This document shows, one piece after another, positions 27,120-63,817 of a DNA stretch of 64,000 bases. A program made the translations under genes and the position numbers. Source of the stretch: Niabella beijingensis (GTDB lineage Bacteria; Bacteroidota; Bacteroidia; Chitinophagales; Chitinophagaceae); contig NZ_JAIQDI010000002.1 in the NCBI RefSeq assembly GCF_020034665.1, positions 496,001 through 560,000 on the forward strand, read 5' to 3'. How positions within the stretch are numbered: the stretch's first letter is position 1; every line of letters begins with the position of its first letter. A model generated the notes under the pieces. The model did not search any database. It saw nothing but the letters and a program-made list of their open reading frames with translations, and was not told the DNA's origin.

Positions 27120-28484
27120 ATGAACGACAAGATACTATCGGCCGGTACCGCAACAACAGATATCACTCCGCCAATTGGTTCTGTAATTAACGGAGATTTT
27201 TTCCCGCACCGTGCGCAGGCTGTTATGGATCCGCTGTATGCCAAAGCGATCGTATTGCAATCCGGTAGTATTCGGCTGGCGTTGGTGATGGTAGATATCT
27301 GTTCACTTACCTATGAATTCCTGGATCCTGTAAAACAGCAGATCGAAGCCGCAACCGGCATTGAGGCCCGGCACCAGCTGATCGCCGCCACACATATTCA
27401 TTCAGGAGGAACGGTTACCGGTATTTTCCTGTCTGAGGTTGATGCAACTTATAGCGCCGCACTTGCCGCTGCGCTGGTTCAGGTGGTAACAGCCGCCTGT
27501 GCACACCTCACACCCTGCCAGGTGGCTTATGGATCGGCAATGGTACCGGAGCATGTAGTTTGCAGACGGTATCATATGAAAAGTGGTTTTGTACCTTTTG
27601 ATCCTTTTGGAAACGGAAGCGATACCGTAGTTACCAATCCTTTCGGAAATGAAGACAAGATCACAGCACGTGCGGGCGCTACAGATCCGGAACTGGCTTT
27701 CCTTGCGATTCGATCCCTGGAAGGAACATGGCTGGCCGTATTGGCGAATTATTCATTACATTATGTAGGCGATTTTTCGCGCGAGCTGATCTCAGCAGAC
27801 TATTTCGGTCATTTTGCCCGCTGTCTGAAAGAACAGCTGGGTGCGGGTTCCGATTTTGTAGCGCTCATGTCTAACGGTACCAGCGGTAATGTAAATATCT
27901 GGGATTTTTTAAGCCCGGGGCGTTATCCCGGCGGGGCCTTTGAAAAAAGCAAACTGATCGGAACGGCACTGGCCACCCGCATCACCGAATGTATCCCGCA
28001 GCTGGAGTGGGAAACAGCGGCGGCCCTGGCAATTGAAACCACCCTGTTTGAGTGGCCGGTACGCAAACCGGCAGCCGCGGAACTGGAGATGGCACAGGAA
28101 TGGCTTCGGGAAGCACAGTTCGACACCGATAAACATCCTGGGCCGCAACAGGTAAAACAAATCTATGCGCGGGAGCAACTGCTTTTAGCAGCTGAGCCCG
28201 ATCATTGCCCGGTGTATCTTCAGGCCATCCGTATTGGCAGCGGACGGATCAGCGCGCTGCCCGGGGAGTTTTTTGCAGAAACAGGATTATGGCTGAAGGA
28301 ACGGTTTTCATCCACTCCCTATTTTACGATTTGCCTGGCAAACGGCAATATTGGATATGTGCCGCCTCCGCATGAAATGGAAGCAGGCGGGTATGAAACC
28401 TGGCGCTGCCGCACCAGTAAACTTGAAGCGGGGGCGGAGCCGGAAATCAGAACCCGGCTGGAACAGTTGTACAAAAAAATATAA
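27120..28484 (+). CDS. Neutral/alkaline ceramidase N-terminal-domain protein, cytosolic (paralogue 1)
   Basis: This 454-residue protein matches only the catalytic domain of neutral ceramidase and has no signal peptide. The opening SAGTATTDITPP is the family start. Likely zinc ligands are conserved: His92/His94 (ATHIHSGG), the His in YSLHYVGD, Glu in LPGEFFAE, and Tyr413 in NGNIGYVP. True ceramidases are secreted, with an extra C-terminal domain; this form is probably a cytosolic amide hydrolase of unknown substrate. Opens the sugar-catabolic locus and converges on the AraC gene with 25 bp between stops. A second paralogue lies at 37813-39123. Confidence 0.8.
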   Translation: MNDKILSAGTATTDITPPIGSVINGDFFPHRAQAVMDPLYAKAIVLQSGSIRLALVMVDICSLTYEFLDPVKQQIEAATGIEARHQLIAATHIHSGGTVTGIFLSEVDATYSAALAAALVQVVTAACAHLTPCQVAYGSAMVPEHVVCRRYHMKSGFVPFDPFGNGSDTVVTNPFGNEDKITARAGATDPELAFLAIRSLEGTWLAVLANYSLHYVGDFSRELISADYFGHFARCLKEQLGAGSDFVALMSNGTSGNVNIWDFLSPGRYPGGAFEKSKLIGTALATRITECIPQLEWETAAALAIETTLFEWPVRKPAAAELEMAQEWLREAQFDTDKHPGPQQVKQIYAREQLLLAAEPDHCPVYLQAIRIGSGRISALPGEFFAETGLWLKERFSSTPYFTICLANGNIGYVPPPHEMEAGGYETWRCRTSKLEAGAEPEIRTRLEQLYKKI

Positions 28485-28509
28485 ACGGACCGGGAACTGG
28501 GACCAGCGG

Positions 28510-29382
28510 TTACGCTGTTGCATCAACCGTTCTGCGGTAATCGGTGGGTGTCATTTTTTTGATCTTCTTAAACTGCCGGTTAAAATTGGCCAGGTTCTTA
28601 AAGCCGCATTCGTAGGCGATCTCCACCACATTCTTATTTTTTTCAGCGATCAGCTTGCAGGCATATCCTACTCTTACCGTATTGAGGTATTCGACAAATG
28701 TGGTCCGGTAATTCTCTTTAAAAAAATTACAGAAAGTGGTAATGGCCATATTCGACCTTGCCGCAATCTCCGGAAGCGAAATATCACTGTCGAAATTGCG
28801 CATGATATATTCGGTGATCTTTGCCGAACGGTCAGATCCGTTCCAGCATCCTTTTTGTACATATCCCGGACTGGCCAGTAATTCGTATTCCCGGGTGTTG
28901 GCCAACAGGTGAAAGATATTGAAGAGCGCGGACAACCGCTCCAGGCCGGTCATTTCCGGCATTCGCTTCATAATGATATTGATCCGGTTCCGGGTCACAC
29001 CGTGAATGACCATCCCATGGGCAGCCAGCTGGAACATTTTTTTCAGGTTCTCCATTTCCGGGATCTCCATAAATTTTTCTCCCAGGAATTTTTCCACAAA
29101 CTGGATCACGATCCCATCGGCAGGCTCTCTGGCTTCTCCCTTTACATAGGTCTCGTCGTTCAGCCATACATGCTGAAGCCCCGGTCCCATAAAAACAAGG
29201 TCATCCTTATCAAAATAGCCGATATGGTCGCCCACCATCCGCCGGCCAGTACTGCTGGTGATCAGCACCAGTTCAAATTCGGGATGGTAATGCCAGGGAC
29301 AGGGAAAGAACTGGCCGCTTTCCCTGAATACAATAAATGATTTGTCATAGTCCTGTGGCAGACGTTGTTCAATCGCTTTCAT
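28510..29382 (-). CDS. AraC-family transcriptional regulator of the catabolic locus
   Basis: This 290-residue regulator has an N-terminal cupin sensor (CPWHYHPEFELVLI and MGPGLQHVWLN, about residues 30-80). Its C-terminal domain has two helix-turn-helix motifs (SLPEIAARSNMAITTFCNFFKENY and VVEIAYECGFKNLANFNRQFKK). The sensor resembles those that bind sugars. The gene is divergent from the esterase operon, and the 140-bp gap contains a 14-bp direct repeat spaced by 30 bp, a fitting AraC operator. It probably activates the surrounding genes when the substrate or a breakdown product is present. Confidence 0.93.
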   Translation of the reverse strand: MKAIEQRLPQDYDKSFIVFRESGQFFPCPWHYHPEFELVLITSSTGRRMVGDHIGYFDKDDLVFMGPGLQHVWLNDETYVKGEAREPADGIVIQFVEKFLGEKFMEIPEMENLKKMFQLAAHGMVIHGVTRNRINIIMKRMPEMTGLERLSALFNIFHLLANTREYELLASPGYVQKGCWNGSDRSAKITEYIMRNFDSDISLPEIAARSNMAITTFCNFFKENYRTTFVEYLNTVRVGYACKLIAEKNKNVVEIAYECGFKNLANFNRQFKKIKKMTPTDYRRTVDATA

Positions 29383-29426
29383 ACTTGAAGAATTAAGGCT
29401 GATATTATTCTATTATAAATTTAAGT

Positions 29427-29470
29427 AAAATAGTACCAGTTCATTTTAATTGGTAAAAAAAAGTATCAGT
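29427..29470 (+). promoter_or_regulatory. Direct repeat, candidate AraC operator
   Basis: AAAATAGTACCAGT (29427-29440) and AAAAAAGTATCAGT (29457-29470) match at 12 of 14 positions and start exactly 30 bp apart, so they face the same side of the helix. They lie 41-84 bp before the -7 box at 29511, the usual zone for an activator. Confidence 0.6.
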
Positions 29471-29510
29471 AGTCAATCAGATAATATTATGTAATCCCTG
29501 AATGGTCCAG

Positions 29511-29518
29511 TACTTTTG
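29511..29518 (+). promoter_or_regulatory. Promoter -7 box of the esterase operon, apparently leaderless
   Basis: TACTTTTG matches TAnnTTTG and ends 4 bp before the ATG at 29523, so transcription would begin at or next to the start codon. No TTTG box is present about 20 bp upstream, as expected for an activator-dependent promoter. Confidence 0.5.
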
Positions 29519-29522: not shown

Positions 29523-30227
29523 ATGCCAGCAATACGGAAGTATTTTACGCCGGGTTCCTTTATTTTACTGCTCCTCCTGGGATACCGCGCGTATGGTCAG
29601 GGGCAAAGCTGGGATACCACCTACCGGCCGGAGATCTATCCGTTGCTCCGGGATCTTTACCGTTCTGAAAAAGCAGATACAACTGATATCGTGTTCCTGG
29701 GGAATAGTATTACCTTCTGGGGGCTGTTTAACGAGACACTGGGGGTGCCGGGCATTAAAAACAGGGGTATCCCAGGTGATATTACCAATGGAGTGCTGGA
29801 ACGTCTGGATGATATCCTGGAAGGGCGGCCTGTAAAAATTTTTATACTGATCGGTATCAATGATATTGCGCGCGGGATCCCGGACAGCATCGTGATCCGT
29901 AACCAGCAACGGATACTGGCGCGGATCCGGGAGCAGTCGCCCCGGACAAAAATTTTTCTGCAAACCCTGTTACCGACAAACAGTTCTTTCAAAAAGTTAT
30001 CCAGCCATTACAATAAAGAGGAACACATCCGTTTTGTCAATAAGGCCCTCCGCCGCCTGGCAGCGGCATCAGGTGCCACGCTGATCGATCTGTATGCGCT
30101 CTTCGATGACGGAACGGGGCAGCTGATAAAAGAGCTGAGTTTTGATGGTGTACATCTGACCAAAAAGGGTTACGACCGCTGGATACAGCTGATGAAGCAA
30201 CACCATTATCTGGACGACATAAAATGA
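29523..30227 (+). CDS. Secreted SGNH/GDSL-family esterase
   Basis: This 234-residue protein has a signal peptide (residues 1-25, ending AYG). The SGNH blocks follow: Ser in FLGNSITFWG, Gly in RGIPGDITN, Asn in IGINDIARG, and Asp/His in FDGVHLTKKGYDRW. These enzymes remove acetyl or other acyl groups from sugars. It is first in a run of five genes with gaps of 3-72 bp (esterase, Asp-box protein, aldolase, SDR, aldo/keto reductase), so an O-acetyl esterase acting on the imported glycan is likely. Confidence 0.88.
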   Translation: MPAIRKYFTPGSFILLLLLGYRAYGQGQSWDTTYRPEIYPLLRDLYRSEKADTTDIVFLGNSITFWGLFNETLGVPGIKNRGIPGDITNGVLERLDDILEGRPVKIFILIGINDIARGIPDSIVIRNQQRILARIREQSPRTKIFLQTLLPTNSSFKKLSSHYNKEEHIRFVNKALRRLAAASGATLIDLYALFDDGTGQLIKELSFDGVHLTKKGYDRWIQLMKQHHYLDDIK

Positions 30228-30254: not shown

Positions 30255-31274
30255 ATGAAGAAATTGATTGCACTTGCCGGATTTTTATTTTCAGCGCAGC
30301 TTTGTCCGGCGCAGTTTCCTGCGGAGGTTCCCGCTTCTGCATTGCCCGGAACGGAGATATGGGACGGGGCTCCGCACAATGCGTTTACGGATCTGCTGTC
30401 CTACAAAGGATATGTATACTGTAGTTTCCGTGAAGGATCAGCACATGTTCCCGGTTCCAACGGAGTAGGCCGTATCATCCGCACCAGGGATGGAAAGAAC
30501 TGGGAATCCTTTGTACTGATTCAGAAAGAAGGCATCGATCTCAGGGATCAGAAGATATCGGTAATGCCCGATGGGCGTATGTTGTGCCTGATGGGCGGTT
30601 CTGTATATGATACCACAAAAAAGCCCTCACAGTTGCTGGGGATGTATCCGCATGTGGCCTTTATGGGACCGGATATGAAATTCACCACACCGGAAAAGGC
30701 CATATTGGAGAACAGCGGTCATAACTGGATCTGGCGGCTTACCTGGTACAAGGGAACCGGTTATGGAATCGATTATGGCAGCGGAAGAGCGGCTGTACTG
30801 GTGAAAACAACAGACGGGAAAACATTTACCCGGGTAGCCAGCCTGGATGTGGATGGAATGCCCAATGAATCCACGATCCGGTTTGATAAAAAAGGAACGA
30901 TGTACATCCTGATCCGGAGGGAACAGGATGATAAAATGGGCATACTGGCTACCGGCACAGCTCCTTTTACTTCTTTTAAATACCGGAAGCTGGATTATCG
31001 TTTGGGAGGGCCGGAATTTATTTTTACACCGGATCAGAAAAAACTGATCGTGGGAACCCGGTTGTACCTGCCCGGAGGGGCAAAAACAGGGATACTTGTT
31101 ACCGATCTTGAGGGCCGGCTGCTGAAGACACAGGTACTGGAGAGTGGCGGTGATTGCAGCTACCCGGGGATGCTGATAAAAGGGAATGAACTCTGGACCA
31201 GTTATTATTCTTCGCACACGGGAAAAACAAAGATCTATTTTGTCCGTATCCCATTGAAGGATCTTTTAAAATAA
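30255..31274 (+). CDS. Secreted Asp-box (BNR) beta-propeller protein 1
   Basis: This 339-residue exported protein (signal peptide MKKLIALAGFLFSAQLCPAQ) has degenerate Asp-box repeats such as TRDGKNWESF and TTDGKTFTRV at regular spacing, as in sialidase-like propellers. I do not see a full GH33 arginine triad or an RIP motif, so sialidase activity is not shown. It follows the esterase gene by 27 bp and could be a glycoside hydrolase or lyase for the locus substrate. Two further Asp-box proteins lie at 44723 and 55885. Confidence 0.7.
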   Translation: MKKLIALAGFLFSAQLCPAQFPAEVPASALPGTEIWDGAPHNAFTDLLSYKGYVYCSFREGSAHVPGSNGVGRIIRTRDGKNWESFVLIQKEGIDLRDQKISVMPDGRMLCLMGGSVYDTTKKPSQLLGMYPHVAFMGPDMKFTTPEKAILENSGHNWIWRLTWYKGTGYGIDYGSGRAAVLVKTTDGKTFTRVASLDVDGMPNESTIRFDKKGTMYILIRREQDDKMGILATGTAPFTSFKYRKLDYRLGGPEFIFTPDQKKLIVGTRLYLPGGAKTGILVTDLEGRLLKTQVLESGGDCSYPGMLIKGNELWTSYYSSHTGKTKIYFVRIPLKDLLK

Positions 31275-31346
31275 GCATTCAGCGGCAACCCTTATAGTTT
31301 CTAAAAACAGACCGGGATGCCGTGCGGTTTTAAACTTATAAAACAG

Positions 31347-32183
31347 ATGAAACAATATCGCCTGAATCGCCTGATGAACCCCGCCTCGGGAAAATGTTTT
31401 GATGTAGCGATCGATCATGGTTTTTTTAATGAAGCAGGATTTCTGAAAGGAATAGAACGGATGCAGGAGGCCGTTGAAACGGTGGTGGCAGCGGCACCGG
31501 ATGCCATACAGCTTACTGCCGGACAACTGCATCACCTGCAGCAGATCCCCGGGAAAGGCAAGCCGGCACTGGTGTTGCGGACAGATGTGGCCAATGTATA
31601 TGGCAGGGAACTGCCGGCAACGGCATTCAGTAAAATGATCGAAGAACCGGTATTGCAGGCGGTGCGGGCCGATGCGGTTTGTATGTGTGTAAATCTGTTC
31701 AGCATCCCCGGTGCACCGGAAGTGACGGCGCAGTGTATTGACAATATCCTGAAACTGAAAGTAGCCGCAGACCATTATGCAATGCCCATGATGGTGGAGC
31801 CGCTGGTGTTCCGCCCCAACAGTGAGGCCGGGGGATATATGGTCGATGGCGATCTGGATAAAATTGTGCCGCTGGTGCGGCAGGCAGTGGAGCTGGGTGC
31901 CGATATCATTAAAGCGGATCCCTGTGATGACCTGGAGCAATATCACAAGGTAATTGAAACAGCGGGCCGGGTACCGGTACTGGTACGCGGCGGCGGAAAG
32001 GCTGCTGATGAAACCATCCTGAAGCGCACGAGGATATTACTGGATCAGGGAATCGCAGGTATCGTATATGGCCGCAATATCATTCAGCATGCATTCCCCG
32101 ATCGCATTACCAGGGCCCTGATGGGTATGGTGCACGAAAATTATACAGTCGAAGCATGTATGGCTGTTTTAAAAAGTGCATAA
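31347..32183 (+). CDS. Class I aldolase, DhnA/LacD/DeoC superfamily
   Basis: This 278-residue TIM-barrel protein resembles bacterial class I fructose-bisphosphate/tagatose aldolases (DhnA and LacD type). FDVAIDHGF near the start and the putative Schiff-base Lys188 in GADIIKADP are seen, followed by [10 protein letters not shown], the phosphate-binding strand. It should cleave a phosphorylated sugar acid or ketose into two three-carbon units or similar. The ATG at 31347 is chosen because residues before it (from 31317) look non-homologous. It is the likely terminal step of the cytosolic route, working with the FGGY kinase at 39125. Confidence 0.8.
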
Positions 32184-32193
32184 AATAATAAAA

Positions 32194-32982
32194 ATGGAAT
32201 TACCGGAAACTATTTTAAGCCTGAAAGGGAAAGATATCTGGGTGATCGGTGGTGCAGGATACCTGGGCCAGCCCACAGTGACCTTGCTGAGTAAGGCAGG
32301 TGCAACCGTACTTTGTTGTGACCTGAACGGGCGTGCCGCGCAGCTTGCAGCTGCCAGCGGAATGGAAGCAACCGTCACTCCTGCTGATATCAATACCGGC
32401 GAAGAAGCCGCCGTAAAAGCCTTTGTTGAAAAACAGGTGGCAGAAAGAGGAACACCTCACGGACTGGTGGATCTGTCCTTCGCATCGACCTCCAAAATAA
32501 TGGAAGACCTCACTGCAGCCGATTTCAATAATGTTAATAAAGCCATTACCAATACTTTTCTGCTGGCGCGGGCGGCAGGTACGCATATGGCAGCGCAGCA
32601 AAGGGGAAGCATTGTTCTTTTTTCCAGTATGTATGGCAATGTGGCGCCCTATCCTGCGGTATATGAAGAGCTGGGGATGAATAAGAACCCGGTTGAATAC
32701 GGAGCGGGCAAAGCGGCTATTATCCAGATGACCCGCTATCTGGCTGTGCATTGGGGAAGAAGAAATGTACGTTGTAATTGTATCTCTCCCGGTCCGTTCC
32801 CCAATCCCCGGGTGCAGGAAGCGCATCCGGAATTCATCAAACGCCTGTCGGAAAAAACGCCTATGGGCCGCGTAGGCAAAGGACATGAGATTGCAGGAAC
32901 TGTTGCTTTCTTAATTTCAGAGGCCGCCTCCTATATTACAGGGCAGAACATATTGGTGGACGGGGGGTGGACTGCCTGGTAA
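32194..32982 (+). CDS. SDR-family oxidoreductase 1
   Basis: This 262-residue short-chain dehydrogenase has the glycine motif [11 protein letters not shown], the catalytic Ser in VLFSSMYGN, the YxxxK pair in [10 protein letters not shown], and the family end INxxNILVDGG-like [12 protein letters not shown]. It probably oxidises or reduces a sugar-derived hydroxyl group. The start is taken at 32194 since an earlier ATG (32176) lies within the aldolase gene. It forms part of the tight run 29523-33870 and is paralogous to the altered SDR at 42419. Confidence 0.88.
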
Positions 32983-32985: not shown

Positions 32986-33870
32986 ATGAATATCATTTCG
33001 CAGCAAAAGATCGGGTTGGGTACGGTTACCTTTGGAAGGGAAATCGATGCGGCACAATCGTTCCGGATCATGGATCATGCAACAGCTGCCGGGATCTTTT
33101 TCTTTGACACGGCGGCTGCATACGGGCAGGGTGCTTCCGAAACCATTATCGGCGATTGGCTGCAGGCGCATCCCTCCCGTGCGCAGCAGGTAACGATTGC
33201 TACAAAATTATTACCACCTTATGATGCTGCTACACTCCGGCAGCGCGTTGCCGAAAGTCTCCGGCGTCTGCAGCGGGAATCCATCGATCTGCTTTTTTTT
33301 CACAACTGGCATCCGTCTGTATTATATGTGGACACTTTAACCGCGCTGGCGGACCTGATGCAGCAGGGGACTGTTAAGGCCACTGGCGCCAGTAACTTTA
33401 ACGGAGCCCAGCTGGACCGGCTGCTCACCACGCAGGAAACCCTGCAGTTGCCTAAAATAACAGCAATACAAAACAACCATAATCTTGCAGTGTCAGATCT
33501 GGATGCACCCTTGCTTTCCGTATGCCGGAACCATCAGCTTGCAATCATTACCTATAGTCCGCTGGGTGCAGGTTTTCTTACGGGAAAACACAGCAGCTCG
33601 GTTGAAGAAGGGTCGCGTTTTAATCTCGTGCCCGGGCACCAGGCTGTTTATTTTACAGATGAAAGCAGGGCGCAGTTCCAAAAACTGTATAACGCGGCAG
33701 GCGGACAAAGATACCGGCAGATACAATGGGCGCTGGCATGGGCATTGCAGCACCCGCATACCGACCGGGTACTGGTTGGTGCCCGTACGGTGATGCACCT
33801 GGACCAGGCACTGCGGGCGGCGGCCTTTGATGATACGGTTTTTTTGCAATGGCTGAAACCATTTGAATGA
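32986..33870 (+). CDS. Aldo/keto reductase 1
   Basis: This 294-residue NADP-type oxidoreductase has the catalytic tetrad Asp41 and Tyr46 (FDTAAAYG), Lys74 (IATKL) and His106 (FHNW). It starts 3 bp after the SDR stop, so they are cotranscribed. The fold, length and GASNFN and SPLGAGFL segments fit the AKR family that includes sugar and L-fucose-type dehydrogenases. The substrate is unknown. A second reductase lies at 40484 and shares only low similarity, so they probably act on different intermediates. Confidence 0.9.
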   Translation: MNIISQQKIGLGTVTFGREIDAAQSFRIMDHATAAGIFFFDTAAAYGQGASETIIGDWLQAHPSRAQQVTIATKLLPPYDAATLRQRVAESLRRLQRESIDLLFFHNWHPSVLYVDTLTALADLMQQGTVKATGASNFNGAQLDRLLTTQETLQLPKITAIQNNHNLAVSDLDAPLLSVCRNHQLAIITYSPLGAGFLTGKHSSSVEEGSRFNLVPGHQAVYFTDESRAQFQKLYNAAGGQRYRQIQWALAWALQHPHTDRVLVGARTVMHLDQALRAAAFDDTVFLQWLKPFE

Positions 33871-34091: not shown

Positions 34092-35492
34092 ATGGAACAA
34101 TTAGATCAGCAACAATTAACAGTAAACAAAGACTGGTGGAAAGAGAGCGCTGCGGGTGTTCCGCAGCTGATTACTGAAACACCGGGGCCGCGGTCAAAAG
34201 AAATGCATACACGCGCTGCCCGCTATATGAAAGGCCTCAGCAGCCAGGTGAAACTTTTTCCTGTGTGTTTTGAAGAAGGGTATGGCGTTACGCTAACAGA
34301 TGTGGACGGGAACCGGTACCTTGATTTTTCTTCCGGTATCTATGTTACCTCACTGGGGCACTGTCATCCAAAGATATCAGAAGCAATCGCCTACTGGGCA
34401 AAAAAACTGATGAATGCACACGATTTTACCACACCCGTTAAGGAGAAGCTGCTGGAAAAAATGGCGGATGTATTACCCGGCAATTTGAATGCCATTCAGC
34501 TGTACAGCGATGGCGCCTCTGCGGTAGAAGCGGCCATCCGTGCTGCCCGTGCTATTACCGGCAAACATGAGTTTGTTTCGGGATATCGCGACTTTCATGG
34601 AAAAAGTATGGCGGCGGTAAGCTGTGCCCAGATGATACGGGGAGATGTGTTCAGTTATGGTCCCACGCGCGCGCCCGGTTTTTATATGGTGCCGCGTCCC
34701 GATCCCTATCGCCCGTTATGGACAAAACCGGACGGCACGATCGATACCGATAAATATATTGAGTTCTATGATCAGTTTATTACTGAAAGCACCGTTGGCA
34801 ATGTAGCGGCCTTCGTACTGGAACCGGCCCAGGGCTGGGCGGGTTCTATATTTCCGCCGGATGATTTTTTCCCGAAGCTAAAAGCATTTTGTGAAAAGAA
34901 GAAGATCCTTTTGTTTGATGATGAAGTGCTGGCCGGCATGGGAAGAACCGGTGAATACCTCTGTATGAACCACTGGAACGTGCAGCCGGATATCGTTACC
35001 CTGGGCAAATCTTTTGGGAACGGATTCCCTGTGACAGCGATGGTATTAAAAGAGGAGTATGGCGAAGCGCTGGAAAGTATTTCGGCTTCTTCCAGTTATG
35101 GTGGTAATCCTATGGCCTGCGCAGCAGCACTGGCATCCATTGAAGTAATAGAGGAAGAAGGATTACTGGAAAATGTACGAACAGTAGGGGCTGCCATTAT
35201 GAAGCGGCTGGAAAAAATGAAAGCAGCGCATCCGATCATTGGCGATGTGAAGGGCAAGGGGTTCCTGCTGGGAATAGAACTGGTTAAAGACAAAACAACA
35301 AAAGAGCCTTTTGCCGAAGCCGGCACGCTGGTGTATCAGAAGGCCTTTCAGCGCGGCCTGGCCTGGATACCGGCCGGGCATATCCTCAGAATGTCGCCAC
35401 CGCTTATTATGGATGAAGCCTATGCCATGAAAGGCATCGATATGATCGAAGATGCCATATATGCCGTTGAAAAACAATTTGGATACGTGTAA
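34092..35492 (+). CDS. Class III pyridoxal-phosphate aminotransferase (4-aminobutyrate-type)
   Basis: This 466-residue enzyme has the class III motifs: LDFSSGIYVTSLGHCHPK, the PLP-binding Asp277 in LFDDEVLAGMGRTGEY, and Schiff-base Lys306 in VTLGKSFGNG. It moves an amino group between an amino compound and a 2-oxo acid, PLP-dependent. Relatives include GABA, ornithine and taurine aminotransferases; the substrate here is not determined. It leads the run aminotransferase-NagA-NagB, with 11 and 19 bp gaps. A succinate-semialdehyde-type dehydrogenase lies at 43211, the usual partner of such transaminases. Confidence 0.9.
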   Translation: MEQLDQQQLTVNKDWWKESAAGVPQLITETPGPRSKEMHTRAARYMKGLSSQVKLFPVCFEEGYGVTLTDVDGNRYLDFSSGIYVTSLGHCHPKISEAIAYWAKKLMNAHDFTTPVKEKLLEKMADVLPGNLNAIQLYSDGASAVEAAIRAARAITGKHEFVSGYRDFHGKSMAAVSCAQMIRGDVFSYGPTRAPGFYMVPRPDPYRPLWTKPDGTIDTDKYIEFYDQFITESTVGNVAAFVLEPAQGWAGSIFPPDDFFPKLKAFCEKKKILLFDDEVLAGMGRTGEYLCMNHWNVQPDIVTLGKSFGNGFPVTAMVLKEEYGEALESISASSSYGGNPMACAAALASIEVIEEEGLLENVRTVGAAIMKRLEKMKAAHPIIGDVKGKGFLLGIELVKDKTTKEPFAEAGTLVYQKAFQRGLAWIPAGHILRMSPPLIMDEAYAMKGIDMIEDAIYAVEKQFGYV

Positions 35493-41440: not shown

Positions 41441-41495
41441 CCGGGATAAAATGACCGGTGTGCTCTGTAAGAACGCCGCTTTAAATTATAAAACG

Positions 41496-46590: not shown

Positions 46591-46851
46591 ATGATGTAGC
46601 TCCGGACGGAGTAGCTTTGATACTGCCATTTGAAGAAGTCGCGTCGGTGAAAAAATTGTTTTTATCTGCCCGATGAGCGTGTGAAAGTGCCTGTAATACT
46701 GTAATGCTTCAGCATGTGCGGTGAATACGAGAAAAGATAACTGCTGTCTGCAGGCGCATCAGGTCCGCAGCAATTTTCAAAAATGCGTGAGAAAGGAATG
46801 CAAAGTGCATCCTTATGGCAACAATAATTGGTTGTCTGTAAAAATAAAATA

Positions 46852-55884: not shown

Positions 55885-57267
55885 ATGATCCTGAAAACAG
55901 TTAACATGCAAATCTTTCTTTTTTTATTCCTGTCAGGGCTTGCCCTTTCGGGCCGGGCACAGCAGCCGGCTGCGCTCATCACTATTAAAGATCCCTCTTT
56001 CCGATCCGGAAGGGGATTACAGGAAGGTATTGCAGCTTATGATGCTGCGGCATTCCGCTATCTTCAGCCGGGAAAAACAGTACTCAATATCCGTATGAAA
56101 GCACCGGTAGTAATTTCCGTGGCATCAAAGCCGGAGAAATGGGGCTTTTTTCAGTTCCCCAATATCGATCGTACCGCCGGAGGTGCCATTGTTGCTAAAT
56201 GGAACCTCGCTAATGATGCAATAGAGGCTTACGGCACAGATACGCAGGGCACGGCAGTTTCTACCGATGGTGGAATGAGCTGGCGGAGTGAACCGACGGA
56301 AGAGCCGGGTAATGCAGTGCTGCTGCCGAATGGAGACCGCCTTGCCATCTACACACCCAAACCGGTTCCCGTAAAAGAGCTGCAGCTGCTGGAACCGGTG
56401 GGGATCGGCCATGAGAATTACCGCAAATCAAATCTTACTTTTTATCGGTTGCACGAACTTCCGGAAAGCAGACAGGGTGTTTGTTTTAAACGATTGAAAA
56501 AAGGAGGATCAAAATGGGAAGTGGAAAAAGCGACCCTGGATGACCCGCAGGCAGCACGTTACAGTCTGGCAGGACTGGTGCCGATTGTCTGGTGGGGCGA
56601 TATAAAAGTGGCAAAAGATGGTGCGCTGGTTGCCGGCATCTATCCCGGCTTTTTGATTGATGAAAACGGAGTGACCGATCCCCGTTCCGGAGCGTTCTTC
56701 TACCGCTCCACAGACAACGGCCATCACTGGAGCATCCTGGGGAGGATCCCGTTCCGGCTGGATGCTGCGGGTGATTCGGTTTCCGCAAAAAGGATGGGTT
56801 TTACAGAGCCTGCTTTTGAGATATTGAGGGATGGTACCTTCCTGTGCGTGCTCCGTACCACGGATGGTGCGGGTATTGGTCCGATGTATGGCAGTTATTC
56901 AAAAGATCAGGGAAAAACCTGGTCGAAGCCCCGCGTCATCACCCCGGCAGGTGTGTTGCCGCGACTGCTGAAACTTTCGAATGGTGTGCTGGTACTGGCT
57001 TCCGGCCGCCCCGGAGTACAGCTGCGGTTTTCAACCGATGCCAGGGGCATGCAGTGGTCGCGGGCCTTTGAAATGCTGCCGCATGATAATGATTTCAGAA
57101 AAGAACTGAATGGTGGTTCCGCGCAGGTTTCCTGCGGGTATACGGGATTGCTGCCCACGGGACCAGACAAGTTCCTGATCATTTATTCCGATTTTCATTA
57201 TCAGGCAACCGGAGGGGCTGTCCGCAAAGCCATCAAAGTACGCGAGGTGACAGTGGATAAAAAATAG
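55885..57267 (+). CDS. Secreted Asp-box (BNR) beta-propeller protein 3
   Basis: This 460-residue exported protein (signal peptide ending GRAQQ) has Asp boxes STDGGMSWRS, STDNGHHWSI and SKDQGKTWSK, plus a degenerate fourth STDARGMQWSR. It has more conserved boxes than protein 1, at similar spacing to protein 2. It is last in the SusC operon, 28 bp after the previous gene. A hydrolase acting on glycan ends before or during import is likely; GH33 assignment is not supported by residues I can identify. Confidence 0.75.
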   Translation: MILKTVNMQIFLFLFLSGLALSGRAQQPAALITIKDPSFRSGRGLQEGIAAYDAAAFRYLQPGKTVLNIRMKAPVVISVASKPEKWGFFQFPNIDRTAGGAIVAKWNLANDAIEAYGTDTQGTAVSTDGGMSWRSEPTEEPGNAVLLPNGDRLAIYTPKPVPVKELQLLEPVGIGHENYRKSNLTFYRLHELPESRQGVCFKRLKKGGSKWEVEKATLDDPQAARYSLAGLVPIVWWGDIKVAKDGALVAGIYPGFLIDENGVTDPRSGAFFYRSTDNGHHWSILGRIPFRLDAAGDSVSAKRMGFTEPAFEILRDGTFLCVLRTTDGAGIGPMYGSYSKDQGKTWSKPRVITPAGVLPRLLKLSNGVLVLASGRPGVQLRFSTDARGMQWSRAFEMLPHDNDFRKELNGGSAQVSCGYTGLLPTGPDKFLIIYSDFHYQATGGAVRKAIKVREVTVDKK

Positions 57268-57344: not shown

Positions 57345-58145
57345 TTACTTATAGGCTTCGTTTCCTTTTTCTTCGCTTACAGCAGTGGCGTTGAATTTAC
57401 CGGCAAGTGTTTTGAAATAGGAGGAGAGCCCTACCACATCTGCGCCCACACTTACAAACTGGTAACCCATCTTGCGGAATTTATCAACATGGTCGATGCC
57501 GCCCGTAGTGCCCGCAAATTTTCCGTGTTTCCGTGCCAGTTCGGCCACACGCGTTCTTGCTTTCAGTAATTCCGGATGATTGAAATCGCCGGGAGCACCA
57601 ATGCCCTGACTGAAATCACCCGGACCAAAGAACAGCATGTCGTAGCCTTCAAGTGCGGCAATGGCTTCCAGTTCCTCCAGTGGTTCGGGGTCTTCGATCT
57701 GCAGGACCACGAACCGTTCCCGGTTTGCTGTTTCCAGGTAAGTGCCAAAGTCCATATTGGTATAGGCGCCATCTGCATTTCCTCCATCGATCGGCCGGCG
57801 GCCCAGTGGGTGAAAGCGGGTCATGTACACTACATTTTTTGCATCTTCAAGGTTCATAATATGCGGCACCATGATGCCGGTGGCATCCATCTCAAGGGGC
57901 TTGATGAGATCGCTGTAGCTGCCCCGCGGCACCCGTACCATCAGGTCGGCATCATATGCCTTGGTGGCCCATACCTGACTGTTGAGTACGTCCCATCCCG
58001 GAGTACAATGTTCCTGATCTACCCAGATACAGTCAAACCCGCAGCGCGCGGCTATTTCAGCCACCTGCGCGTTTGAGATGTTTATCTTGATACAGCTGGC
58101 AAAACCGCCGCTTCTTAGTTTTTGTAATACCCTGCTTGCTCTCAT
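57345..58145 (-). CDS. HpcH/HpaI-family class II aldolase
   Basis: This 266-residue metal-dependent aldolase has the catalytic His46 in IWVDQEHCTP, Arg71 in VRVPRG, and the metal ligands Glu151 (LQIEDPE) and Asp177 (FGPGDFS). Such enzymes cleave 2-keto-3-deoxy acids or hydroxy-keto acids to pyruvate and an aldehyde. The product aldehyde could feed the semialdehyde-type dehydrogenase at 43211. It is last in a minus-strand group of three with an MFS transporter and a HEAT-like lipoprotein; all start from the intergenic region at 60518-60970. Confidence 0.9.
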   Translation of the reverse strand: MRASRVLQKLRSGGFASCIKINISNAQVAEIAARCGFDCIWVDQEHCTPGWDVLNSQVWATKAYDADLMVRVPRGSYSDLIKPLEMDATGIMVPHIMNLEDAKNVVYMTRFHPLGRRPIDGGNADGAYTNMDFGTYLETANRERFVVLQIEDPEPLEELEAIAALEGYDMLFFGPGDFSQGIGAPGDFNHPELLKARTRVAELARKHGKFAGTTGGIDHVDKFRKMGYQFVSVGADVVGLSSYFKTLAGKFNATAVSEEKGNEAYK

Positions 58146-58283: not shown

Positions 58284-59243
58284 TTATTCTGCCTCGCGCG
58301 CCGCGATTCTAAGGATCGCATAAGCGGCGGCAGCGCGTACATCAGCGCCGGCGGGGCTTTGTGCGTCATAAAGACCATTATTGTGTTCATTGTTCAGGTA
58401 TGCAGAAAGAATGAGAAGGTGCTCGCAGGTGCCCTGTTCTGCCAGTGCCTGTGCCAGTTCGATCCGCTGACTGGCGTTGAATTGCTCCCAGTGATCCTGC
58501 ATTTTCGTTTTTATTTTTTTGAACAGTTCTTCATTGCCTCCGGTATACGTTACAAAAGCCGTATACAGCAGGTTGTTGCGTAATCCGCCGGAAACGGGTT
58601 CTTTCATGGCCCTTTCTGCAAATGAATGCCATTCGCCCGGGTTCAGGTCCTTTGATTTTAGCAATACATACGCACTTATTTTCCGGATGATGGAATCTTC
58701 GTCACTAAATGCCATTTCGATAAACCGGCGCTTGTTCTTTTCCTCCAGTTCTTTTGAAGTATAAGAAGTGGCCCATAACGTATAGGTCTGAAGGATGCGG
58801 CTGGTATCTTCCAGTGCAGCATCGGTGGCATCCGGGTACTGCTGCACCGGGGAGGTCTTCAGCTTGGCAAGTGTTTCTGCTGCGTGGATGCGGTCGGGGG
58901 CCGTGGTATCCCCGAAAATGCTGAGCACGTTGTTCAGCCATTGTTTTTTCTTTTCCGGATCCGAGGCTGTCTGATACAGTACTCTTGAAATACCGATGCG
59001 GTATTTCGGCTCCTGCTGATACGACGCGTATTCTGCCTGGTAGGCCTGTTCCACTTCGCGAATGTCCTGCTGCAGCCAGATAAGGTATTCAGCCGCGTGG
59101 ACCTTCACCCACAGGGTATTGTTTTTTAATACGGCGCGCAGTTCATGCAGCGCCTGGTCTTTTAATGGTTGGTCGATGGTACAGGATGGCATACAGGAAT
59201 TATTAAGAATGGCAAGCAGGCAAATAGTAATAAAAACCTTCAT
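58284..59243 (-). CDS. HEAT-like alpha-helical repeat lipoprotein, unknown function
   Basis: This 319-residue protein starts at ATG 59243 (MKVFITICLLAILNNSC), giving a lipoprotein signal with Cys17. The mature part is all alpha-helical with HEAT-like repeats: LHELRAVLKNNTLWVKVHAAEYLIW, RIHAAETLAKLK, RKISAYVLLKSK, RIELAQALAEQGT and DVRAAAAYAILRIA, the last flanked by an AGADVRAAA turn. No catalytic motif is visible. It lies 5 bp downstream of the MFS transporter stop, so it is cotranscribed; 138 bp of unremarkable sequence separates it from the aldolase. A scaffold or binding role is plausible. Confidence 0.7.
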   Translation of the reverse strand: MKVFITICLLAILNNSCMPSCTIDQPLKDQALHELRAVLKNNTLWVKVHAAEYLIWLQQDIREVEQAYQAEYASYQQEPKYRIGISRVLYQTASDPEKKKQWLNNVLSIFGDTTAPDRIHAAETLAKLKTSPVQQYPDATDAALEDTSRILQTYTLWATSYTSKELEEKNKRRFIEMAFSDEDSIIRKISAYVLLKSKDLNPGEWHSFAERAMKEPVSGGLRNNLLYTAFVTYTGGNEELFKKIKTKMQDHWEQFNASQRIELAQALAEQGTCEHLLILSAYLNNEHNNGLYDAQSPAGADVRAAAAYAILRIAAREAE

Positions 59244-59248: not shown

Positions 59249-60517
59249 TTAATTTGATGAGGAACGGGTACGTGCGTAGAAACCTTTGATCATAAACAGC
59301 AGCAGGGCACAAAGGATCATAGTGATACCTGCTATTTTAAATAATACCTGGGTGTTTACCGAAGCATCCCTTAGAATACCTCCGGCGTAAATGCCCAGTC
59401 CGCCTACAATACAGGCGAACATATTCAGTATGCCATAGCCCGTAGCCCGGTATTTTTCGTCCGAGACCATACAAAGAATGGGCATGAGGTTGGTATCCGT
59501 AAACGTACGGGTAAGTGCGTATACCATAAAGCCTCCGATGGCAAGGGCCATTATGCTGGTGGAGCCAGCTATAAATGCTGCAGGCGCTGCGATCAGTAAA
59601 CCCACGGCAGGAAGCAGGATGCGCGCATAGTTGTTTTTCCGGTGCCAGCGGTCTGCCAGGATACCGCCTAAAATAACTCCGACAAAGCTAAAAGGGTAGA
59701 CATACCAGGTGGCATAGACGCCTGCCATGGTTTGCGAAAGATTGAAGTGCTCTTTATAATAAGTGGGCAGCCAGCCTACGATCATCCATCCCACAACGCC
59801 CAGCAGTCCCCAGAAAATGACCAGCAGGATAAAATTGCGGCCTTTAAAAAGCACGTTGATGCCATCGAGGAAGCTGATCTTCTGCGCGGCGCTCCCCCGA
59901 TCGTCAGGTGTCGTGCTTCTGCGGTCGGGAGTATCTTTTAATGTAAAAAACATAACCACTGCGTAGAGGATCCCGAATGCGCCAAAAACGGTGAAGGCAT
60001 CGCTCCAGTGATGATTCTCTGCGATCCATCCCCCCAGGAATCCCATCGACTGGCCGATCATGATGCCGCCGTTATGAACACCGGTGGCCAGTGAGCGGGT
60101 ATTGCCGCGGTGATAGTCGGAGATCAGCGCCAGTGCAGCGGGGATATAACAGGCCTCGCTGATCCCCATCAATGCGCGGGTGGCCAGCAATTGTTCAAAA
60201 TTTTGTGCATGAGCAGTGAGCCAGGTTACAGCCGACCAGATAAAAAGACTGACAATGATTACCCTGCTGCGGCTGAACCGGTCGGCAAGGTATCCTGCAT
60301 AAGGACTCAGCAATCCGTATACCCATAAAAAAACAGAGGTCAGCAATCCGAACTGTGCATCGGTCATGGGAATGGCTTCAACGATGGAGCCGCGCATGGT
60401 GGTCAGCATGATGCGGTCGAGATAATTCAAAAAGCCGACGACAAATAAAAGAAGAACAGTAAGCCAGGCGCCACGCAGGGGTTTGATATGCTGCTTTAGA
60501 TCGTTATTGATAATCAT
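59249..60517 (-). CDS. MFS transporter, sugar/organic-anion type
   Basis: About 12 membrane helices in 422 residues. The motif A region reads SPYAGYLADRFSRSRVIIVS, with FLGGWIAENHHWS after helix 5. The N-terminus RGAWLTVLLLFVVGFLNYLDRIML and helix 4 TRALMGISEACYIPAALALISDY are like anion:cation symporter or Spinster-type MFS proteins. It most likely carries the degraded sugar or sugar acid across the inner membrane. It is the first gene in the minus-strand unit; its promoter probably lies in the 453-bp gap shared with the PhyH gene, though no perfect box was seen. Confidence 0.9.
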   Translation of the reverse strand: MIINNDLKQHIKPLRGAWLTVLLLFVVGFLNYLDRIMLTTMRGSIVEAIPMTDAQFGLLTSVFLWVYGLLSPYAGYLADRFSRSRVIIVSLFIWSAVTWLTAHAQNFEQLLATRALMGISEACYIPAALALISDYHRGNTRSLATGVHNGGIMIGQSMGFLGGWIAENHHWSDAFTVFGAFGILYAVVMFFTLKDTPDRRSTTPDDRGSAAQKISFLDGINVLFKGRNFILLVIFWGLLGVVGWMIVGWLPTYYKEHFNLSQTMAGVYATWYVYPFSFVGVILGGILADRWHRKNNYARILLPAVGLLIAAPAAFIAGSTSIMALAIGGFMVYALTRTFTDTNLMPILCMVSDEKYRATGYGILNMFACIVGGLGIYAGGILRDASVNTQVLFKIAGITMILCALLLFMIKGFYARTRSSSN

Positions 60518-60970: not shown

Positions 60971-61729
60971 ATGAATACAACAGATTATGCCTCTGTAAAA
61001 AAAGCGTATGACCACGACGGATATGCCTTCCTTCCTGCCTTTTTGAGCGAGGAGGAGATCACCAGGATCAGAGAGGAGCTCAACACCTTTATCGCACAGC
61101 AGGTTCCCGGAATGCCGCCCGGTTATGTTTTTTACGAAGATAAGAGCGACCCTGCCACACTGAAACAACTCCAGGATATGCACCGCTACAGTCCTTTTTT
61201 TGAAAAAATGCTGGAAGGGAGCCGGTTTGAGGAACTGGCTGCCGTATTGCTGGACGATACGGCGGTTCCGAAAAATATCGAATACTTCAATAAGCCTGCG
61301 CACATCGGCAAGGCAACACCACCGCACCAGGATGGATATTATTTTATGCTGAAGCCGGTAAAGGCCATTACAATGTGGCTGGCGCTGGAACCTGCCGATG
61401 AAACCAATGGTTGCGTACGCTATATAAAAGGATCGCATTTAAAACCCATGCGCCCGCACGGACGTACACAAACACTGGGGTTTTCCCAGGGCATCACCGA
61501 TTATTCGGAACAGGATAAAACAGAAGAAGTGTTTTTCCCGGCAAAGGCGGGAGATTTGCTGGTTCATGATGCCATGACCATTCACCGTACCGATCCGAAT
61601 GGAAGTGCCCGCTCCAGGAAGGCACTGGGGTTTATTTATTTCGGAGCCTCTGCAAAAGAAGACCTGGAGGCTAAAGCAGCCTACCAGCAACGATTGCATG
61701 AAGAACGGTTTGAAAAAAATGAAAAATAA
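60971..61729 (+). CDS. Phytanoyl-CoA dioxygenase (PhyH) family protein
   Basis: This 252-residue protein is a 2-oxoglutarate/Fe(II) oxygenase. Its iron ligands are visible as His119-Gln-Asp121 (PPHQDGYYF) and a distal His205 (MTIHRTDPN), with Arg214 or Arg216 likely binding 2-oxoglutarate. It hydroxylates or demethylates a small molecule. Its stop overlaps the GH127 gene start by 11 bp, so the two are translated together. Oxidative removal of O-methyl or activation of a sugar carbon would fit the locus, but this is inference. Confidence 0.9.
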   Translation: MNTTDYASVKKAYDHDGYAFLPAFLSEEEITRIREELNTFIAQQVPGMPPGYVFYEDKSDPATLKQLQDMHRYSPFFEKMLEGSRFEELAAVLLDDTAVPKNIEYFNKPAHIGKATPPHQDGYYFMLKPVKAITMWLALEPADETNGCVRYIKGSHLKPMRPHGRTQTLGFSQGITDYSEQDKTEEVFFPAKAGDLLVHDAMTIHRTDPNGSARSRKALGFIYFGASAKEDLEAKAAYQQRLHEERFEKNEK

Positions 61730-63817
61730 TTTTCGCCTGTTGCAGCTGTTGCGGGGTACCACGCGGTATCTCAGTAATGATCTTTTTGCAGCTTTCGCTA
61801 TAATGGTTGTTTTTTTACTGACTGTTTTTGGTGCAGGTGCACAGCAGGTCCATCGTGTGACTGCTGTTAAAAACCGGCTTCAGCCATTGACTGCGGAAGC
61901 AGTGAATATCCGCGGGTATCTCGGTGAGAAAATTGAATTGTGCATCCGGAACCGCGTTCAGCTGCAGCCTGCAGGCCCTTTCCTCCGGATATTTAAAACC
62001 AGGAACCTTGATCCGGGTGGCTATTGGGGTGAGTTCATTGGCAAGTGGGCGGCAGCAGCAGCGCTGGCCTGCCGGTACCAGTCCAATCCTGCATTAAAAG
62101 AGAAAGCCCGTGTGGCGATGGATGAGTTGATCCGGACACCTTCTGAGAACGGATATATTTCTACCTATAATGCCGGAGACGCATTTACAGTATGGGACAT
62201 CTGGATACAGAAATATGTGCTGCTCGGACTGATCGCTCAGTATGAAGTAACCGGTAACCGGCAGTATCTCGGGGCGGCGCAGAAAAGTGCCGGCTATCTG
62301 CTGAATAAAACCGGACCGGGGAAAATTAGCCTCGAAGCATATGGCCCGCCTTTTCATAAAGGAGGGGTGAACTTTTCTATCCTGGAACCAATGGTGCTGT
62401 TGTATGAATATACGGGCGACAGCAAATACCTGCAATACAGTAAATATATTGTGGCATCCTGGAGCAGGCCCGGAAAATATTCCCCGAAAGGGCTGCGGTT
62501 GATCGAAAATGCGGAAGCCGGTTTGCTGCCGGTGCAGTACGAGGTACGCCATGCGTACACACTCATGTCCGACTTCGAAGGATTATGCGAGCTTTACCGG
62601 GCCACCGGTCACCGGCGCTATCTGGAAGCCTGTATCCGGTTTGCCCGTGCGGTTGAGCGTTATGAACTGATGATCACCGGAACGGTATCCAATCATGAAA
62701 TGTGGTACAATGGCGCGTTATCGCAAACAGGTACGCTGGAGCAGCCTAACGAAACCTGCGCAACAGTTACCTGGATGAAACTTTGTTATCAGCTGCTGCG
62801 TCTTACCGGCGATCCGCACTGGGCCAATAACATGGAAACGTCGTTGTACAACGGGCTGCTGGGTGCCATGATGCCCAGGGGCGAATGGTGGGCCTATCAT
62901 TCCCAGCTGAACGGACAACGGATGCCCAGCCGTGTACAGGGTTGCGATATCAGCTGCTGTGTCTCCAGCGGGCCCAGAGGCCTGCTGATCACACCGGAAT
63001 GGGCCGCGATGAAAACCCCCGGCGGCGGACTTACGATCAACCTCTACAATGCTGGCTCCATTGACCATCGTATGCCGAACGGACAGTTGATACAAATCAA
63101 AGAAGAGACGGATTATCCGGTATCGGGTCTTGTACGGTTTACGGTTCATACGTCACAACCGGCCACCTTACAGTTGGCACTGCGTATACCAGCCTGGAGC
63201 AAAAAGACAAAACTAAAAATAAATGGCCGGGCCGTTCACGTCGAAGCTGGCGCATATGCTGTTCTCAACCGTACCTGGAAGCAGGGGATCAGGTTGAACT
63301 GGAACTGGACATCCGCGGCCGCATTGTACATGCCCCGGGCGGCACAGAACAGGCCGTGGTACGTGGTCCGGTGGTACTGGCTTTGGACAACCGCCTGGTA
63401 CAGGAACAGGATACTGCCATATGGCTGATCCCCGACTCCCGCCATTTTGAACTATTCCCCAATAATCCGAAATACCGGTTCATAGGTCCCGTACATGATT
63501 TTGACAGCCGTAAAAGGGACGTATATATTGATCTGAAAGCAGTAGCGGTGCCGGATAAAAATATCCGGATGGCCTTTGAAGTGCCCTTTACAGATCGCCC
63601 GGTGTTTCATATTCACCGGGAAAAAAAGATCATTATGTGCGACTATGCTTCTGCCGGCAATCAATGGAACGATTCGAACTTTTACCGGGTCTGGCTGCCA
63701 CAGCCCCTCTATATGGGTAATATGTACGCACGAAATACATGGAAACTGATGGGCTATGGTCTGAAAGCTCCGGTAAAAGTACCTCAATACATTACCAAAG
63801 CACTGCAGCAGGAATGA
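61719..63817 (+). pseudogene. GH127 beta-L-arabinofuranosidase-type protein, frameshifted
   Basis: This exported protein (about 700 residues if repaired) has a signal peptide and an (alpha/alpha)6 domain with WGEFIGKWAAAAALACRYQ. The zinc ligands known in HypBA1 are conserved as Glu345-x-Cys347 (NETCATV) and Cys413-Cys414 (DISCCVSS). The frame breaks in a run of four G (63284-63287). One added G would restore WKQGDQVELELD and join the second part, from about 63290 to stop 63817 (VRGPVVLALDNRLVQ onwards, ending KVPQYITKALQQE). As written, the protein ends at 63428 with an aberrant tail. ATG 61719 overlaps the PhyH stop. Confidence 0.8.

Follow-up and report, generated by a model that had tools for sequence, protein, structure and literature searches.

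The pathways for N-acetylglucosamine (GlcNAc; NagA, then NagB) and for sialic acid (NanA, NanK, NanE, NagA, then NagB) have a step order that is published (PMC2693436). The tandem of deacetylase and deaminase families that characterizes both is also found in the locus described here, at positions 27120–63817 of a 64,000-nucleotide stretch (the window) of the Niabella beijingensis genome (contig NZ_JAIQDI010000002.1, positions 496,001 to 560,000; 6.59 Mb in three contigs). The locus also resembles the polysaccharide utilization loci (PULs) of Bacteroidota, with which it shares a SusC/SusD pair, surface lipoproteins, secreted hydrolases, an esterase, a regulator, and an inner-membrane carrier.

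We propose, with a probability of about one half, that this PUL-type locus feeds an undescribed cytosolic pathway for N-acylated amino sugars, in which deacylation and deamination to a ketose would precede phosphorylation. No description of the core gene set was found in the open-access full-text literature among the matches listed, as judged from titles and the starts of abstracts, subscription papers lying mostly outside this literature. The heart of the locus and its portable part is a tight operon on the plus strand. It comprises nagA (35504–36733), for a NagA-family deacetylase without Arg227 (TIGR00221, 237 bits, cut-off 225.65); nagB (36753–37685), for a NagB-like protein without the phosphate site (TIGR00502, 56.8 bits, cut-off 236.9; profile match to solved NagB, E 1.5e-11); cerB (37813–39123), for a short ceramidase-like Zn hydrolase (Ceramidase_alk, E 1.2e-17; PDB 2zws); and fggy (39125–40468), for a xylulokinase-like FGGY sugar kinase (FGGY_N, E 5.7e-38; TIGR01312, 189 bits, below the cut-off of 380).

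A scan of genome contigs with the alignment of NagB-like proteins gave 266 pattern stretches, 197 of which encode a relative. From these, the 80 best were retained as loci, each with up to 10 kb of flanking sequence; many are short contigs, and 64 are at least 12 kb long. After clustering of the open reading frames (ORFs), nagB is present in 79 of the 80 loci, cerB in 66, nagA in 64, and fggy in 56. The first three of the operon genes occur together in 55 loci and all four in 48, or in 45 of the 64 longer ones. By phylum, the four-gene core is found in Bacteroidota (32 of 36 loci), Planctomycetota (6 of 15), Verrucomicrobiota (6 of 12), Chloroflexota (2 of 3), and KSB1 (2 of 3), that is, in five phylum-level groups. 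Counting also the three-gene form, which lacks FGGY, brings the number to seven; this form is further found in Actinomycetota (1 of 3 loci) and Kiritimatiellota (1 of 1) and in none of the six Spirochaetota loci. In two actinobacterial loci (L028 and L031), the gene after nagB encodes a distant FGGY-like protein, 20–22% identical to that of the window.

Adjacent core genes on the same strand are separated by median gaps of 15 bases for nagA-nagB (n = 57), 12 for nagB-cerB (n = 47), and 0 for cerB-fggy (n = 51), and the pairwise distances of the four core proteins correlate at 0.68–0.82 (47 loci). Mapped on the nagB tree, the presence of cerB and that of fggy shift jointly in 5.6 of 6 independent pairs (median p 0.031, range 0.031–0.125); the comparison of nagA with cerB is uninformative (median p 1). 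The kiritimatiellote locus sits among planctomycetes on this tree, which may reflect transfer of the operon. A homolog search with the NagB-like protein returned 3299 proteins with E values of 0.001 or lower, some of which may lie outside its family. Among 395 sampled Bacteroidota genomes, only the window's own contains it at E 1e-60; thus, the system is wide-ranging but sparse.

The preliminary description of this DNA had assigned some 28 genes to joint action in one pathway that matches no single known one. The genes do co-occur in other genomes, both among 17 Niabella genomes and in the 80 loci, and a clean split into known pathways was not seen, since nagA, nagB, cerB, and fggy stay together across phyla. 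A uniform 28-gene pathway has to be given up: the portable part is the four-gene operon, and the other enzymes vary between loci.

Residues were compared, against E. coli NagB numbering, in 79 NagB-like sequences from 78 loci and, for the deacetylase, in 64 NagA-like sequences from 63 loci. In both proteins the metal ligands and most catalytic residues are kept and the phosphate-binding residues are gone. The TGG loop is missing from all 79 NagB-like proteins. Position 172, Arg in E. coli, is Leu in 76 of them and Met in 3, and no Lys occurs at position 208 (Thr 42, Ser 14, Ala 9, Val 6, Asn 6, Ile 2). Asp72, Glu73, and His143 are invariant, and position 148 is Glu in 77 proteins and Asp in 2. 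The residues that bind the phosphate in Streptococcus mutans NagB are Thr38/Ser37, Lys194, and Arg159 (PMC8369159). These appear, in our reading, to be equivalent to the E. coli loop, Lys208, and Arg172. Among the NagA-like proteins, Arg227 is found in none of the 64, an Arg lies within three columns of it in one, and the protein of the window has Thr. The aligned solved NagA chains carry Arg at this position, which in the E. coli enzyme binds the substrate phosphate. The metal set of the NagA-like proteins is complete, with the HxH motif, Glu131, and His216 invariant and His195 present in 63 of 64; His251 and Asp273 are also invariant. Both a profile alignment to solved NagB and alignments to solved NagA agree with the residue losses.

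The third core protein also retains its family's key positions. H89/H91, H187, E368, and Y397 occur in 97% or more of 60 CerB proteins, and CerA, the second ceramidase-like protein of the locus, has them too; they presumably correspond to the Zn-site ligands of neutral ceramidase. Because these positions are kept, CerB is probably a functional Zn hydrolase.

The loss of the phosphate-binding residues from both the deacetylase and the NagB-like protein leads us to read the locus as one for the catabolism of an unphosphorylated N-acyl amino sugar. Judging from the protein families, SusC/SusD and the surface lipoproteins would capture a glycan, the Asp-box hydrolases, the GDSL esterase, and GH127 would trim it, and the MFS carrier would import the sugar. 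The HpcH aldolase, together with the aldo/keto reductase (AKR) AKR2, Gfo, and the short-chain dehydrogenase (SDR) SDR2, may produce a free N-acyl amino aldose from precursors that are probably acids of the ulosonic (2-keto-3-deoxy) type. This sugar would be deacylated while still unphosphorylated, and the NagB-like protein would then turn the free amino aldose into a ketose and ammonia. Only after deamination would the FGGY kinase phosphorylate the ketose. In Niabella, DhnA would cleave the ketose phosphate and the aldehyde dehydrogenase would oxidize the resulting aldehyde, and in Bacteroidales an SIS isomerase and an isomerase similar to triose-phosphate isomerase (TPI) would finish the pathway. 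The class III aminotransferase may remove or shift a further amino group. FGGY family kinases usually act on ketoses; a late kinase fits this preference, the losses of the phosphate sites, and the presence of a class I aldolase related to LsrF and MJ0400.

An N-acetylated amino sugar, the substrate class favored from the outset, is still the likely one. The HpcH and DHDPS families are largely pyruvate-forming, and the sialidase-like proteins, the DHDPS and HpcH aldolases, and a NANM-like kelch protein in Bacteroidota hint at a sugar source of the nonulosonic-acid type; outside Bacteroidota such hints are thin. We put forward more tentatively, at somewhat under even odds, a wider form of the proposal. 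A phosphate-free amino-sugar pathway, with the kinase acting only once the ketose is formed, would be carried by a four-gene operon in at least five phylum-level groups, with swappable modules for entry (ulosonic-acid aldolases) and exit (an aldolase or SIS/TPI). Its substrate would be a nutrient that is widespread yet overlooked, such as a 6-deoxy amino sugar or a nonulosonic acid from the envelope polysaccharides of bacteria.

Within the genus, we compared the 17 Niabella genomes at E-value limits of 1e-60 to 1e-100. Six carry nagB, one of them being 74% complete, and the HpcH aldolase gene is found in exactly the same six. The genes for CerA, the Fe-alcohol dehydrogenase, and a 581-residue protein are each present in five of the six and that for PhyH in four, and none of these five genes, HpcH included, was found at these limits in the 11 genomes without nagB. 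The nearest Niabella relatives of the window's NagB-like protein are those of N. aurantiaca (91%), N. pedocola, and another Niabella sp. (both 92%). Four relatives keep the order Fe-ADH, cerA, araC, gdsl, bnr1, dhnA, sdr1, akr1, amt3, nagA, nagB, cerB, fggy, akr2, gfo, sdr2, aldh, except that one (G398) has no gdsl match and another (G405) has susC/susD inserted between dhnA and sdr1. In three relatives hpcH, unk342, mfs, phyH, and gh127 form a single block. For Niabella we therefore rejected the view that PhyH and GH127 are unrelated neighbors: PhyH is found only in genomes with the locus, and the block is syntenic. The 581-residue and 342-residue proteins are well conserved in the locus-bearing relatives. 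The stretch of SusC/SusD and surface proteins varies among Niabella species (susC matches of 25–30%), as expected if the captured glycan differs between them. One relative (G402) has a sulfatase-like protein and additional Asp-box-like proteins in this variable region (L093-L095, about 28–58 kb of the joined stretch), along with two SusC/SusD sets, all identified by eye and with tblastn.

The carriers may be mostly one clade, and so the genus evidence is not independent; the cross-phylum evidence argues more strongly for one unit. Shared presence and absence, synteny, and cross-phylum clustering link the genes of the locus beyond chance. The single coordinated locus seen in the preliminary description is borne out.

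Around the core, the transaminase, the DhnA and HpcH aldolases, and the AKR, Gfo, and SDR genes come and go between loci: amt3 is present in 29 of the 80 loci, mfs and hpcH in 25 each, akr2 in 21, gfo and the joint sdr1/sdr2 cluster in 18 each, and dhnA in 8. Loci of Bacteroidales have an SIS-domain sugar isomerase, a TIM-family protein, and UPF0047 (YjbQ), mostly directly 3' of the kinase gene. The best solved match of the TIM-family protein is the TPI 1hg3, presumably an archaeal-type enzyme of archaeal origin. This set is found in Bacteroidales loci without the transaminase. The transaminase gene amt3 itself occurs in Niabella, in many planctomycete and verrucomicrobial loci, and in two of the three KSB1 loci, and a DeoR regulator is present in 15 of the 26 long loci with amt3. 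The dhnA gene is near the core in four Verrucomicrobiota loci as well. None of the 64 longer loci has amt3 together with SIS or TPI (26 have amt3 only and 19 SIS only), and fggy overlaps the SIS gene by a median of 4 bases (n = 18). We did not accept amt3 and SIS/TPI as proven alternatives, the nagB tree offering too few informative pairs (median p 1). The same applies to hpcH (25 loci) and a DHDPS-family cluster (c25; 5 of 80 loci), which never occur together in the 64 loci (p 0.16): another DHDPS-like cluster, c31, recognized by eye, joins hpcH in L035 and L059. AKR2, Gfo, and SDR co-occur with p < 1e-8, uncorrected for relatedness, and Gfo tracks AKR2 in 6.2 of 8 independent pairs.

BNR_2 and DHDPS are the commonest families, with five members each, among 87 non-core neighbors scanned in Bacteroidota; in one locus (L023), NANM-like kelch, BNR-cluster, and DHDPS-family proteins lie upstream of the core. 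A GalNAc source suggested by GH109-like neighbors was dismissed, these being only 2 of the 87. Outside Bacteroidota, 90 of 229 candidate neighbors were scanned, and 25 of the 92 families found were listed. These include URO-D (7), MFS (6), Gfo (4), and glycerate kinase (3) and show no consistent polysaccharide signature; BNR and DHDPS are absent from the 25 listed, and bnr2-like matches occur in the spirochaete locus L063. URO-D and the MTTB methyltransferases found twice among the 90 neighbors suggest demethylation chemistry near some cores.

Family names of the extra clusters in planctomycetes and the kiritimatiellote were assigned by count and by eye. Glycerate kinase (cluster c48) is found in planctomycete loci L026, L032, and L040; in the last of these, a protein judged by eye to be LarA-like (nickel-dependent racemase family; 8187–9554) is encoded inside the core operon beside glycerate kinase, and another such protein is in spirochaete L047. 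Two small proteins that match nothing in Pfam (clusters c14 and c18; for example, L016:5855-6358 and L008:5989-6456) occur as a pair close to the core in loci of Bacteroidota, KSB1, actinobacteria, and Chloroflexota. All six long loci with c18 also have c14, which is found alone in others. In L060 (14506–16842), a 778-residue protein appears, by eye, to combine an amidohydrolase domain with a class III aminotransferase; four loci have a member of its cluster, c29, near the core. The carbon number of the sugar (C3, C4, C6, or 6-deoxy) could not be taken from the TPI, SIS, glycerate kinase, or phosphofructokinase neighbors, as each fits some loci and none fits all.

Several observations weigh against phosphate-free catabolism of an N-acyl amino sugar. 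Asp141 is replaced in all 79 NagB-like proteins (Thr 78, Ser 1), which could mean a different reaction, and a Lys or Arg lies within three columns of position 208 in seven of them. The NagA-like protein of the window passes the NCBI cut-off for TIGR00221. The same genome has three other NagA and two other NagB homologs, which as controls gave mixed results: Arg aligns at position 227 in two of the three NagA paralogs, and neither NagB paralog has Arg at column 172, one of them keeping a TGS loop and the other, L003, lacking the TGG loop; both retain Lys208. Hence the loop, Lys208, and Arg227 carry the argument jointly and no single one does. L003, a NagB homolog in a 261-residue frame, indicates that the phosphate loop may have been lost more than once. 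The proposal also leaves the role of the class III aminotransferase unexplained, and the mutual exclusion of amt3 and TPI is not independent of phylogeny. A phosphofructokinase-like gene is near the core in L032 and in kiritimatiellote L064, neither of which has an intact FGGY (no match in L064, a 99-residue FGGY-like stretch beside the kinase gene in L032), and a truncated third case is in L033. Such kinases normally take a sugar phosphate. Replacement of FGGY by phosphofructokinase was rejected as not shown, L032 keeping its FGGY-like stretch and L033 being cut off. Finally, no aldolase is found in the 21 kb of L013, so cleavage by DhnA is unsupported as a universal step.

The same operon could instead serve other chemistry, which we consider unlikely. 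The NagB-like protein would then be only an isomerase or hydrolase, and nitrogen would be removed after the kinase step, with the SIS protein doing so in Bacteroidales and the class III aminotransferase in the loci of Niabella, planctomycetes, and Verrucomicrobiota. The change of Asp141, the absence of loci with both amt3 and SIS, and the tight overlap of fggy with the SIS gene all count for it, as does a glutamate-dehydrogenase-family gene adjoining amt3 in two loci (L040 and L069). SIS proteins include amino-sugar-phosphate deaminases such as AgaS. However, the catalytic residues at positions 72, 73, and 143 are invariant and that at 148 nearly so, among named SIS proteins of solved structure phosphosugar isomerases come nearest, and the exclusivity of amt3 and SIS follows phylogeny. 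A divergent version of the ordinary phosphorylated GlcNAc/sialic acid pathway, with both enzymes acting on hexosamine 6-phosphate, is decidedly improbable. It could appeal to the TIGR00221 score of the deacetylase, to the nearby genes for BNR_2 proteins and DHDPS-family aldolases in Bacteroidota loci, and to the two loci with a phosphofructokinase-like gene, but both enzymes lack the phosphate-binding residues. Moreover, no NanA, NanE, NanK, ROK kinase, or phosphotransferase system match occurs among the 29 ORFs of the window scanned against Pfam, and the spare NagA and NagB homologs of the genome indicate that the locus set is separate from the usual pathway.

That unrelated known pathways were brought together by chance in one genomic island is very improbable, and for the core this is largely refuted by the occurrence of the operon in several phyla. 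In its favor, the SusC/SusD region varies within Niabella, and no gene for PhyH, GH127, DUF5017, fasciclin, or the 342-residue protein was found in the flanks of about 10 kb examined in the 80 loci; flanks of this length miss PhyH and GH127 in Niabella itself. The synteny among relatives (four in one comparison, three in another) and the shared presence and absence across the 17 genomes speak against it, though the carriers may be one clade. We give the least credence to a catabolism of N-acyl lipids or sphingoids with the ceramidase-like proteins as key enzymes. Two such proteins with the conserved His, Glu, and Tyr positions are indeed encoded, yet neither has a signal peptide evident by eye, they are some 200 residues shorter than neutral ceramidase (436 residues in CerB and 646 in 2zws, with residues 8–101 as the sole strongly matched stretch), and the remaining genes (SusC/SusD, FGGY, NagA-like, aldolases) point to sugar chemistry.

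The rest of the locus was annotated by scanning the 29 ORFs against Pfam and 20 of them also against NCBIfam. Nearly all the families named in the preliminary description are present, and its sets of three Asp-box proteins and two ceramidase-like hydrolases hold in part, as noted below. Genes are on the plus strand unless stated otherwise, and export was judged by eye. Upstream of the core, an iron-containing alcohol dehydrogenase gene (25670–26884, minus strand; Pfam Fe-ADH) is a divergent neighbor and possible member that adjoins cerA in four relatives. The ceramidase assignment, clear for CerB, is weak for CerA (27120–28484; Ceramidase_alk, E 1.9e-5), whose 24 bits fall below the Pfam cut-off of 32.1. 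An AraC-type regulator (28510–29382, minus; HTH_18; 93–96% identity in four relatives) and an apparently exported GDSL esterase (29523–30227; Lipase_GDSL_2, E 3.3e-27) follow. The next product, Bnr1 (30255–31274), is apparently exported and was counted among the Asp-box proteins; it has no regular Asp-box and no Pfam match, only a distant similarity to sialidase structures (E 0.0016). Then come dhnA, for a class I DeoC/LacD aldolase (31317–32183; PF01791, E 8.7e-30; nearest structures MJ0400 and LsrF), the Pfam-assigned sdr1 (32176–32982) and akr1 (32986–33870), and amt3 (34092–35492; PF00202, E 3.4e-93).

Downstream of the core lie akr2 (40484–41440), gfo for a Gfo/Idh-type oxidoreductase (41451–42416), and sdr2 (42419–43198), all assigned by Pfam, and a gene for a (succinate-)semialdehyde-type aldehyde dehydrogenase (43211–44581; PRK09406, 554.8 bits, cut-off 730). 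Bnr2 (44723–46522; BNR_2, E 3.3e-30) is an apparently exported sialidase-like protein with five regular Asp-boxes. It is followed by a SusC-type TonB-dependent transporter (46852–50013, from the first ATG of an ORF opening at 46828) and a SusD-type lipoprotein (50054–51649), both assigned by Pfam; this adjacent pair and the secreted hydrolases are what define a PUL. Beyond them are a DUF5017 surface lipoprotein (51661–52590, from the first ATG of an ORF opening at 51586; PF16409, E 1e-39), a fasciclin-domain lipoprotein (52633–54078; PF02469, E 7.4e-41), the 581-residue protein linked to the locus (54111–55856; apparently exported, no Pfam match), and Bnr3 (55885–57267), an apparently exported Asp-box protein with three regular boxes and a BNR_2 score (E 3.2e-7, 30.4 bits) just below the cut-off of 31.4. 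Three genes on the minus strand encode the HpcH/HpaI pyruvate-type aldolase (57345–58145; PF03328, E 3.3e-28), the 342-residue ORF product (58284–59243, with 59243 as the likely start; no Pfam match, 68–70% identity in three relatives), and the MFS transporter (59249–60517; PF07690, E 5.4e-56). The last two are the PhyH-type Fe/2-oxoglutarate dioxygenase (60971–61729; PF05721, E 4.3e-33) and a GH127-family gene (61719–63817; PF07944, E 4.8e-42) whose halves (ORFs 61599–63428 and 63356–63817) overlap in different frames. It is a single frame in three Niabella relatives, and the split is either an assembly error or a young pseudogene. The regulator, the MFS transporter, the two lipoproteins, and the 581- and 342-residue proteins are not named in the preliminary description. 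Just downstream of the window (L089:1071-15368), FecR- and sigma-factor-like genes, another SusC/SusD pair, and endonuclease/phosphatase-like and sulfatase-like proteins were seen by eye.

Several sources name homologs of the NagB-like protein glucosamine-6-phosphate deaminase. For the 79 NagB-like and 64 NagA-like sequences checked, the deaminase and NagA labels are probably wrong. If our reading is right, current annotation hides a route by which rumen Bacteroidales, planctomycetes, Verrucomicrobiota, and other bacteria degrade an environmental amino sugar. Isolates carry the small operon (Niabella, Mariniphaga, Maribellus, Proteiniphilum, and Dysgonomonas), which makes the substrate and the order of steps directly testable.

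As to known systems, no single one accounts for the locus, as the preliminary description had held for sialate, chitin, hexuronate, and inositol. No uronate isomerase, dehydratase, or 2-keto-3-deoxygluconate kinase family was found in the Pfam and NCBIfam scans of the window, and the inositol set (IolE, IolB, IolC, IolD, IolG) is represented there by a weak IolG match only (27.4 bits, cut-off 355). Amino-sugar catabolism within a PUL is already known as a kind, and in this sense the system is not categorically new. It differs from other Bacteroidota PULs in having few classical glycoside hydrolases, an unusually large cytosolic enzyme set, and an AraC-type regulator.

Pathways for erythritol and erythrulose combine three enzymes: an FGGY kinase, a TPI-like protein, and a sugar-phosphate isomerase. 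The Bacteroidales loci pair the same three, but their cores also contain deacetylase, NagB-like, and ceramidase-like genes, and their TPI-like protein is closest to 1hg3. Neutral ceramidase has the Zn-site His, Glu, and Tyr positions in common with CerB; it is, however, a full-length, two-domain, exported enzyme. In the use of anhydro-sialic acid, a Gfo/Idh oxidoreductase (RgNanOx or YjhC) is encoded in a locus with sialidase-like genes (PMC7535918). Our locus also pairs Gfo/Idh with sialidase-like genes, a likeness at the superfamily level. The resemblance to sialic acid catabolism extends to secreted proteins similar to sialidases and to aldolases of the pyruvate type, both encoded near the core in Bacteroidota loci. 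The differences from the GlcNAc and sialic acid pathways concern the central steps: the deacetylase and the NagB-like protein lack phosphate sites, the window has no match to NanA, NanE, or NanK, and CerB is an extra core enzyme. The kinase is of the FGGY family and would act after rather than before these steps, so that the order of the GlcNAc pathway would be reversed.

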